Source of the DNA: Spinacia oleracea
Taxonomy: Eukaryota > Streptophyta > Magnoliopsida > Caryophyllales > Amaranthaceae
Direction of reading: 5' to 3'
DNA length: 64,000 nt
Assembly (NCBI RefSeq): GCF_020520425.1
Contig: NC_079491.1
Coordinates: 1,426,001 to 1,490,000 of the forward strand
In this document: in pieces, positions 48,085-51,377 of the stretch
Layout: the number at the start of each line of letters is the position of its first letter
Numbering within the stretch: the first letter of the stretch is position 1
Translations under genes and position numbers: made by a program
Notes under the pieces: generated by a model
Databases searched by the model: none
Told to the model about the DNA's origin: nothing
What the model saw: only the letters and a program-made list of their open reading frames with translations

Positions 48085-48308
48085 TCCCTATGGGGTTGGC
48101 TCAACTGGTGAGCTTTCCCTTCTTCCCTAGCATAGTCTAGGATTCGATTCCTACCCCAAACATTTGCTTGGGATTTAAGTTGGGGAGGGGGAGGGGGAGG
48201 GGGAGGGGGAGGGGGTGTAAGGCTTGTAATGGGCCTCTGGATGGGCCCTGTACGAGGGTAGCCCAAAGAATTTCTTCTTACCTGTAAAAAAAAAAAAAAA
48301 AAAAAAAA
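48085..48308 (+). mobile_element. tRNA-derived SINE with internal G-rich expansion
   Basis: Head TGGGGTTGGCTCAACTGGTG and AGGATTCGATTCCTA (box-A and box-B like), a (GGGGGA)n stretch at about 48182-48214, then GGGTAGCCCAAAGAATTTCT and a 22-base poly(A). It is a different family from the TGGTTCAGTGG SINEs. Confidence 0.78.
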
Positions 48309-48610: not shown

Positions 48611-51377
48611 ATGAATAACCTTAAGTTTTTTTCATCAACACTGAGATTAACAGTTTTCGTGTTTATGATCTTCTTACTATATATAAAACCAATAATCTCG
48701 AAAGATTTTCTTCAATGCATGTCAACTAAAAACTCTAATAGTGTTGTTTATACAAGAGAATCAGCCTTATACTCCTCCCTGTTGCAAAAATCACAGCAGA
48801 ACCCAAGGTGGTTGAACTCCACCTTAGCCACCAAACCTCTGTACATAGTCACCCCAACTCAGGAACCCGAGATCGGAGTCGCTGTCCTCTGCAGCAGAGC
48901 ACATGGCTTCCAGGTGAGCAATGACGGATCTTCTTGATGGCCGGGGTGGGCCTAAAGATGGCTACGGGCTGGGTCGGGCCCATGTCAAGCCCACTCTGCA
49001 GGCCGTCGTGCCTAAGCCTAATTTTACTAAATTTAGAGTACTTTGTCGTGATTTTTCCAAAAAATGCGGCCCAGACGCGGCCCACGACTTTGTGCTCATG
49101 CCGGGCTTTTTTCGTGCCTGTTCCAGCCCGGTCGGGCCACAACCATCTTTAGGTGGGCCCGGGCCCCCAAATTATTTTCGTAGTGTAGTTTTAGTTCTGC
49201 CCCCCCTAAAGTTTTAATATAATTGTATAAATTACATACTATACTCCTTAATTCTTCTACTGTCCCCCTATCAAAACTGTTCAAGATCCGCCACTGCAGG
49301 TTAGAATTCGGAGTGGAGGACACGACTACGAGGGCCTATCTTACCTGAGCAGGACTCCATTCGTCCTAATCGATCTCGTCCACCTTCGAGAGATCACAAT
49401 CAACATGGAGGATCAATCTGCATGGGTTCAGTCCGGGGCAACACTAGGGGAGCTCTACTACAACATTGCACAGAAAACTAACACCTATGGTTTCCCTGCC
49501 GGTGTTTGCCCTACTGTTGGAGTTGGGGGACATATCAGTGGAGGTGGGTTCGGGCCTCTGACAAGGAAGTACGGTTTGGCAGCAGATCACGTGGTGGATG
49601 CTCGGTTAGTTGACGTGAACGGGCGGGTTTTAGACCGGAAGTTGATGGGTGAGGAACTGTTTTGGGCTATTAGAGGTGGTGGAGGGGCAAGTTTTGGGGT
49701 GATTACTGCATGGAAGATTAAGTTGGTTCCAGTTCCAGTTACCGTAACAGTTTTTACAGTATACAAAACTCTTGAACAAGGAGCTAATAAGCTCATTGAT
49801 CGATGGCAGCGGATTGCAGATAAGTTACCTGAAGATCTGTTCATTAGGGTCATAGTTCAGAATTTGGGTGGTGGAAGTTATGGGGTAAAGAAAACTGTTC
49901 AAGCTTCTTTCAACTCTATGTTTCTTGGGAATATTCAGAGGTATCAGTACTAACATACATTCTACAAGTCTGCTTAGTTCATACACCTGCTTACTTGTGC
50001 ACATAGACTATGGCACTTAGAGCAACATCAGCGCCAAGTCTTAAGACTTGAATTTTGCTGACATAACATATGCCCCACCTAGTCTTAAACATATCAGTTT
50101 GTAGCATTGAAGTGGGTTAGTCTTAACAAACTCTTAAATCGAGGTCTTGAAAACCAAGACTTAACTTAAGACTCAATGTGTGAGTTAAATAAAAAAAAAA
50201 CATAGTATTTGAGATGTTTTAAATGAATTTGAGGGGTGAAGAGCTAAATTTGGATGAGTTTGAAGAACTCTTAACAAAATTTAATTAATTTTAAATATTA
50301 GTGGAAAGCTGACATGACATATGAGAAAAGTCTTAAGACAAGACCCCTTGATATTGCTCTTAGACTCGACTACTAATGTTGTCATTTTCTAAAAATTTTG
50401 AATGCTTTTGATCTAAACTCCTAAAATGTACCACATAACAAGGAGTCAAAGATTTAACACGAGTGATTAAAGTTTAGTAAAAACTAGAAAAACTGATTTT
50501 GGCACATCTTTATGAGAGTAAAGCGCAATTTCCTGTATACTCAAAGTGGGTGTGTCAAAACAACTTCTCTAAAACTAGAAACTATGTAACATTATTGATA
50601 ATTGTAAGTATTAAAAAGAGTGAATAAAGGAGTAATATAGAAGTAAATGCATGTTTCATTCTTCCTATTTCCATAGTGAAACCTAACATTATTCAAATTT
50701 CTCTATCTTGCAAAAACAGCCTAATCCCATTAATGAAGATAAGCTTCCCTGAACTAGGACTAGAAGCAAAAGACTGCAAAGAAATCAGTTGGATTGAGTC
50801 AGTCCTATACTTTGCCGGGCACCCAAGCGGCACGTCAAGGGAAGTTCTCCTAGAAAGAGATCATCAACTTTACAAGAGCTACAAGAGCTACTTCAAGGGC
50901 AAATCAGACTTTGTAAACAAAGTCATACCAAAAACTGTGTTTCAACAAGTTTGGGAGAGGCACTTACAGGTAAACGAGGCGTACATGGTGATGGAACCAC
51001 TTGGCGGGGTAATGAACCGCATACCAGAAACCCAAATAGCTTTCCCTCATAGAAGAGGAAACCTATACAATATACAGTATATAGTGAAGTGGAAGGTGAA
51101 TGAGGTCGAGGAAGCTAAACGGCATATTCAATGGATGAGAAGTCTTCATAAGTTTATGACTCCATATGTTTCTAAATCTCCAAGAACAGCTTATTTTAAT
51201 TATAGAGACCTTGATTTGGGTATTAATGGGATTAATGGAAGTACAAGCTATATGGAAGCTAGGGTTTGGGGTACTAGATACTTTAAGAATAATTTCGAGA
51301 GGTTGGCTAAGGCGAAAAGAGGTGTTGATCCAAGTAATTTCTTCAGAGATGAGCAGAGTATTCCTCCTTTTAGCTAA
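48611..51377 (+). CDS. berberine-bridge-enzyme-like FAD-linked oxidase
   Basis: Three exons: 48611-48913, 49300-49940 and 50720-51377, giving 533 residues, the usual family length. Residues 1-30 form a signal peptide (LTVFVFMIFLLYI core), so the product is secreted or enters the endomembrane system. The FAD domain carries both covalent flavin anchors: His in RSGGHDYEGLSY and Cys in GVCPTVGVGGHISGGGFG. The Cys pair FLQC and VLCSR fits the conserved N-terminal disulfide. The substrate domain includes PELGLEAKDCKEISWIES and the C-terminal BBE motif around YFNYRDLDLG and NNFERLAKAK. Family members oxidise monolignols, oligosaccharides or alkaloids; the substrate here cannot be inferred. Intron 1 is a transposon (see finding), and intron 2 holds a MITE. 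No frameshift or lost anchor residue is seen. Confidence 0.93.
48919..49296. mobile_element. hAT-like MITE forming BBE intron 1
   Basis: Ends CAATGACGGATCTT and CAGTGGCGGATCTTGA (read inwards), flanked by CAGGTGAG (48911-48918) and CAGGTTAG (49297-49304), an 8-bp duplication with one change. The spliced intron (48914-49299, 386 nt) equals the element (378 bp) plus one octamer. The interior matches the element at 113-292. Confidence 0.87.
48953..49151. mobile_element. second hAT-like MITE nested in the first
   Basis: A 199-bp element with inverted ends TAAAGATGG/CCATCTTTA and a perfect 8-bp duplication GGTGGGCC (48945-48952 and 49152-49159). GGCCCG-rich, with relatives at 4388-4632 and 45005-45240 and a possible end near 58600 (TATAAGATGGCTGTGGGC). 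Confidence 0.87.
50020..50359. repeat. PIF/Harbinger-type MITE in BBE intron 2
   Basis: Ends GAGCAACATCA and GAGCAATATCA (read inwards) plus shared GTCTTAAGACTT just inside. The flanks are TTA on both sides (50017-50019 and 50360-50362). Confidence 0.9.

Follow-up and report, generated by a model that had tools for sequence, protein, structure and literature searches.

How does an intron come to interrupt an exon that paralogous genes keep whole? A 64,000-nucleotide window of the Spinacia oleracea genome (C5:1426001-1490000, the whole stretch of DNA analysed here) raises this question through a berberine-bridge-enzyme-like (BBE-like) gene whose predicted first intron is made up of transposon sequence. 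We consider it very probable, with splicing predicted from the DNA, that this intron was born when a transposon duplicated an AGGT-containing target. The genome searched comprised 894,210,420 bases in 242 contigs, and the repeat matches lay on contigs C1 to C6.

Joining the three exons of the gene (Table 1) gives a coding sequence of 1602 nt, corresponding to 533 aa plus a stop. At the first junction HGFQ is fused with VRIRSGGHDYEG; the predicted excision at CAG/GTGAG..CTGCAG/GTTAG (slashes mark splice junctions) removes 386 nt, a length of 2 mod 3, and translation with intron 1 retained meets a stop at residue 109. The FAD_binding_4 and BBE domains were matched by a form of the protein with a single different residue where intron 2 is removed. 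Among solved structures, the top match of the spliced product was 8ate, named as an FAD-binding PCMH-type domain protein (E 7.3e-172), and this alignment is ungapped at the intron 1 junction. The next matches, 4ud8 and 5d79, are named as BBE proteins.

Table 1. Features of the BBE-like gene and of its predicted first intron (window coordinates).
Feature	Position	Strand	Basis
Exon 1, BBE-like gene, MNNLK...HGFQ, 3' end CCAG	48611..48913	+	open frame; joined translation
Left target duplication CAGGTGAG; last 3 exon bases CAG plus predicted 5' splice site GTGAG	48911..48918	+	sequence; U1 duplex
Intron 1 (predicted), 386 nt, GTGAGC...CTGCAG	48914..49299	+	predicted from frame restoration and family alignment
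Outer hAT-type MITE, left part; inner end carries GGTGGGCC	48919..48952	+	matches family copies
Target duplication of nested MITE, left copy GGTGGGCC	48945..48952	+	sequence
Nested second hAT-type MITE, 199 bp, ends TAAAGATGGC and CCATCTTTA	48953..49151	+	separate genomic repeat family; perfect 8-bp duplication
Target duplication of nested MITE, right copy GGTGGGCC	49152..49159	+	sequence
Outer hAT-type MITE, right part; pyrimidine-rich tract, end ...CCGCCACTG	49160..49296	+	matches family copies
Right target duplication CAGGTTAG; CAG, predicted 3' splice site; GTTAG coding (Val-Arg)	49297..49304	+	sequence
Exon 2, VRIRSGGHDYEG...GNIQ	49300..49940	+	open frame; joined translation
Intron 2 (predicted), 779 nt, GTATCAG...AAACAG	49941..50719	+	joined translation, duplication check, paralog comparison
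Exon 3, through stop	50720..51377	+	open frame; joined translation

The second predicted intron is missing in all 11 long single-frame BBE-like paralogs (lengths 492-568 counting the stop; one, L018, ends ~40 residues early). We looked for a target duplication at its ends and saw none, and for this reason set aside the idea that intron 2, too, was made by a transposon. Within it lies a MITE (50020-50359) flanked by TTA duplications at 50017-50019 and 50360-50362, which we take to be Harbinger-like. Upstream, ~300 bp 5' of the start codon, is a SINE-like element (about 48087-48308), in which boxes resembling those of a tRNA promoter occur together with GGGGGA repeats; its poly-A tract stops near 48307.

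The borders of intron 1 coincide with two octamers, CAGGTGAG and CAGGTTAG, which are identical at seven of eight positions and enclose exactly 378 bp. Octamers at least this alike (7/8) flank 0.08% of random 378-bp segments of the window (200,000 draws). Terminal inverted repeats of 15 nt, 87% complementary, are present at 48918-48932 and 49283-49297. The U1 duplex at the donor, CAGGTGAGCA, was calculated at -11.1 kcal/mol, the strongest among the 29 GT sites scored between 48801 and 49299 (the next reached -8.7), compared with -7.1 for the GTTAG version at the same place and -12.3 for the full consensus. On the acceptor side, the outer MITE end ...ACTG and the duplicated CAG together form CTGCAG/GT, which resembles a common plant acceptor, and CTCCTTAATTCTTCTACTGTCCCCC is contained in the last 70 nt of the intron. 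Element and one duplication are thus bounded exactly by GT..AG, and their removal restores the frame. The first-pass annotation had proposed several of these points: the octamers with inverted ends inside them, the loss of exactly the element plus 8 bp if splicing occurs at CAG/GT, a duplication spanning both exon-intron borders and so supplying both junctions, and a donor stronger with GTGAG than with GTTAG, here in terms of duplex energy. All were borne out.

The single difference between the octamers can be given a tentative direction. Three of the 11 long paralogs have Val at the octamer position, all encoded by GTT, and GTT is also the commonest Val codon of the gene itself (21/45). For these reasons we weakly favour GTT as the ancestral state, with the donor perhaps changing later to GTG. 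Intron 1 has a GC content of 0.495 (0.436 without the nested MITE) and the exons have 0.40-0.47; dicot introns are usually AU-rich.

The 378-bp insert had been read as one element with inverted ends. Its transposon origin stands, but the single element does not: a genome search with 48911-49304 as the query (394 bp; 40 of 1410 candidates scored) ruled this out, with query positions 1-44 and 240-394 matching one repeat family and 91-244 another. Given two disjoint families, each with its own duplication, we conclude that there are two nested hAT-type MITEs (171 + 199 + 8 bp). Elements of the hAT superfamily make 8-bp duplications, and both MITEs fit that superfamily as judged from duplication length and inverted ends.

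Without 48953-49159, the outer MITE is 171 bp long and can be aligned with full-length copies of its family. This family is numerous (40 copies scored of 523 first-look candidates), and its copies are small (mostly 167-187 bp), noncoding and bordered by short inverted repeats with CARTGGCGGATCTT-like ends. A scan of 28 loci recognised ends in 25 and found duplications of 7/8 or 8/8 in 16 of the 28. In a set of 45 loci, which overlaps the 28, is a small part of the family and includes at least one chance match in retroelement-like sequence (L080), six lacked recognisable ends and the other 39 yielded 34 distinct left/right pairs. Of these pairs, 11 agreed at 8/8, 13 at 7/8, three at 6/8 and seven at fewer positions, counts that are favoured by an end finder that scored the duplication too. 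Shuffled pairs reached 7-8/8 in 2.3%, a control raised by chance self-pairings among the shuffles. With 24 of 34 pairs at 7/8 or 8/8 and the window copy at 7/8, the family makes 8-bp duplications, and the expectation that MITE ends should coincide with the octamers when many copies are aligned survived the comparison.

The nested MITE has inverted ends and lies between perfect GGTGGGCC octamers. Support from other copies for its 8-bp duplication is moderate: among 11, three matched at 8/8 and one at 7/8, and seven with script-placed ends matched at 3 to 5 of 8. Against a rough 11-copy consensus, the window copy of the nested MITE shows 27 differences in 198 columns. For the outer MITE, the difference from a consensus of 22 copies is 13.5%, and the distance from its own-subfamily consensus is K2P 0.087 (~9%), a value on which the age of this MITE rests and which was obtained with 11 hand-picked, old and diverse copies.

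The first-pass annotation had further supposed that the ancestral exon was uninterrupted, and the paralogs agree. Using tblastn against the same genome, we obtained alignments ungapped at the intron 1 junction for 20 other BBE-like loci, all distinct, and none of these is interrupted (0/20). These derive from 25 rows, five of which were second loci over the same gene, with matches ending short of the junction excluded; the query was misframed after intron 2, which leaves the intron 1 region unaffected. The nearest paralog is 49.6% identical to the window gene. We infer that the ancestor carried the octamer once (CAGGTNAG).

Has the gene remained functional since the insertion? Its 533-aa frame contains no stops, and of the 76 positions at which the 11 paralogs all agree it has changed at two, one of them in the N-terminal Met column, where the alignment is doubtful. 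When each paralog was taken as the target in turn, 0 to 9 changes at invariant positions were counted. In neutral simulations at K 0.087 (n=5000), 37 sequences stayed stop-free and none kept at least 74 of 76 random codons unchanged; both tests were passed by 5/5000 at K 0.05 and 126/5000 at K 0.03, and frameshifts, which the simulations left out, would lower these chances further. Because the insert is ~9% diverged and yet the frame is stop-free with two of 76 invariant positions changed, the gene appears to have stayed under selection since the insertion. Such selection would be hard to explain if the insert were not spliced out, suggesting that it has been removed from the transcript through most of its life. 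This argument is indirect, and it is the chief one for such removal.

Both insertions, their duplications, the restored frame, the absence of the intron from the paralogs and the conservation of the coding sequence are demonstrated above, and the steps joining them may have run as follows. A 171-bp hAT-type MITE would have landed in CAGGT(T/G)AG within an uninterrupted BBE-like exon, and the 8-bp duplication would have put CAG/GT on each side of it. The left octamer could then serve as the 5' splice site and the CAG of the right octamer complete the 3' splice site, so that the spliceosome would remove the outer MITE with one duplication and leave the protein unchanged. A later insertion, that of the nested MITE (199 bp + 8 bp), would have brought the intron from its original 179 nt to 386 nt. 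Since element, duplication and nesting are all legible, the sequence fixes which insertion came first and that the intron began at 179 nt.

Two other BBE-like loci carry transposon-like inserts in exons. In L027 (C6:109422139; 1984-2884), an 885-bp hAT-like insert with the 8-bp duplication GTTAGAGG interrupts a BBE exon, and homology is limited to residues 71-299 of 560 of L011. At L026/L030 (C1:131583257-131584430; insert at about 1975-2231 of L030), the exon insert is presumably a Stowaway-like MITE; here homology to L013 stops at residue 424 of 529, and the L030 paralog is 87% identical to L013. Judged by their sequences, both look like dead genes. Neither duplication contains AGGT; in L027 the right edge cuts through an AGGT, which was therefore not duplicated in full. 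These observations agree with the idea that an AGGT target made the difference between a harmless and a damaging exon insert, but two cases prove nothing. Elsewhere in the family, L021 (about 2152) and L036 (about 1685) apparently have in common an intron near residue 255 (CCAG/GTATAT..ACAG/GAGTG), at a position that differs from those of the window gene's introns.

Several points count against a transposon-born intron: one of the eight duplication letters differs, the GC content of intron 1 is unlike that of usual dicot introns, even the nearest paralog is distant (49.6% identity), and the age of the insert depends on the hand-picked consensus, a true K of 0.03 letting 126 of 5000 neutral simulations through both tests. 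An intron GC-rich for a dicot, together with the two relatives whose exon inserts accompany dead-looking genes, would suit a different history, in which the MITE disrupted the exon, is spliced inefficiently and has left a weak allele or young pseudogene, the splice-like octamers being there by chance. We think this unlikely, given that the frame is open over all three exons, that 74 of the 76 invariant positions are intact, and that the insert is old enough for a dead gene to show stops and changes. It is very improbable that the MITE inserted into an older intron located at this codon. The gene does have another intron missing in the long paralogs, and nothing else was found in favour of this idea; however, the duplication spans both junctions, no remnant of an older intron lies between octamer and element, and none of the 20 other loci has an intron here.

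If intron 1 was born from the outer MITE, as we prefer, the same family might have made introns repeatedly and be a true introner, as the likeness drawn in the first-pass annotation implied. Its abundance and the pyrimidine-rich stretch provided by its right end would fit such a role. However, the exact pattern AGGT-N(0,4)-CARTGRCGGATC occurs at eight genome sites, all inspected, and the window alone has a MITE within what is evidently a coding exon. At L082, L084 and L085 a full MITE lies between AGGT duplications, with no coding frame evident; the duplication of the MITE at L086 agrees at 6/8; L079 holds a different repeat; and L080 and L081 are retroelement-like coding sequence without the MITE. 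A second pattern gave three sites, all within these eight; searches of this kind overlook old copies whose ends have mutated. AGGT is present in two of 28 distinct duplications, and CAGGTNAG followed by the element end occurs once in the genome with up to one mismatch allowed. For the nested family there are five AGGT sites: two have the right octamer within one mismatch and open frames of at most 53 codons across the site, and three have no such octamer in the 900 bases examined. When the flanks of the 45 outer loci were rejoined, eight frames of at least 100 aa crossed the site; a Pfam comparison at 0.01 gave no match for seven of them, and L080, the eighth, a chance end match in retroelement-like sequence, was excluded. 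We rejected other copies as introns: among the AGGT sites inspected for both families, that of the window alone has a MITE interrupting an evident coding exon.

In this partial survey, then, neither MITE family yielded a second intron in the copies and AGGT sites that we looked at, and the search suggested earlier, for the MITE in other coding exons with AGGT duplications, turned up none among the sites inspected. Membership in an introner family is not borne out, and that the outer family is a true introner seems barely credible to us. A broader version, in which hAT-type MITEs here make spliced introns oftener than recognised, as a low-level introner-like process in a land plant, is speculative and improbable. 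Two side observations concern outer-family copies: L084 and L085 (C5:3041865 and 3047886), 6 kb apart, have a common duplication, TAGGTAAC, and common flanks, and are apparently a local duplication. At L089 (C6:146885578) a copy adjoins a frame with GTKGFRAPE, which we take to resemble a protein-kinase motif, and this copy may lie in an intron beside a kinase exon; the 225-aa frame has no Pfam match.

How does this case compare with known transposon-made introns? A maize intron made by Ds, reportedly described by Giroux et al. in 1994, is said to represent a mutant allele that arose where the transposon system was active. There too a hAT-superfamily element, with its 8-bp duplication, is reported to have turned into an intron of a plant gene; the spinach intron, in contrast, is an old insertion in a conserved gene, with both junctions inside the duplication. 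The creation of introns by transposon insertion into AGGT is a published model (PMC3443670, 2012), and a table in that paper gives 35 such cases from Oryza, Drosophila, Oikopleura and Zea. As here, the duplication gives an AG/GT donor and an AG/G acceptor and leaves the coding sequence unchanged; the spinach case differs from those cases in being found in a dicot and in having a second MITE nested inside. Introners, according to a 2022 survey of 835 animal and land-plant genomes (PMC9860276), occur in only two groups, both animals, and some families take both splice sites from the insertion site. They resemble our intron in having inverted ends and a duplication that supplies the splice sites, and they differ in forming many introns per genome, with none reported from land plants, compared with the one intron found here. 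The accessible part of PMC3488318 makes no mention of such a case, and in open-licence literature on MITE- or hAT-made introns and on BBE-like gene structure we recognised nothing as this one. The mechanism of intron birth is already published with grass cases (PMC3443670); what is new is a well-preserved instance with nesting and not the category.

Few intron births are legible in DNA; in this one the sequence still shows the MITE that founded the intron, the octamers made on its insertion and the nested MITE that followed. The locus provides a testable case of a harmless transposon insertion into an exon, and it offers a contrast within one gene family, where the exon inserts of two relatives, lacking an AGGT duplication, accompany dead-looking genes. 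If intron 1 is spliced as predicted, a single transposon-made intron can arise in a land plant, although introner families are unreported there.
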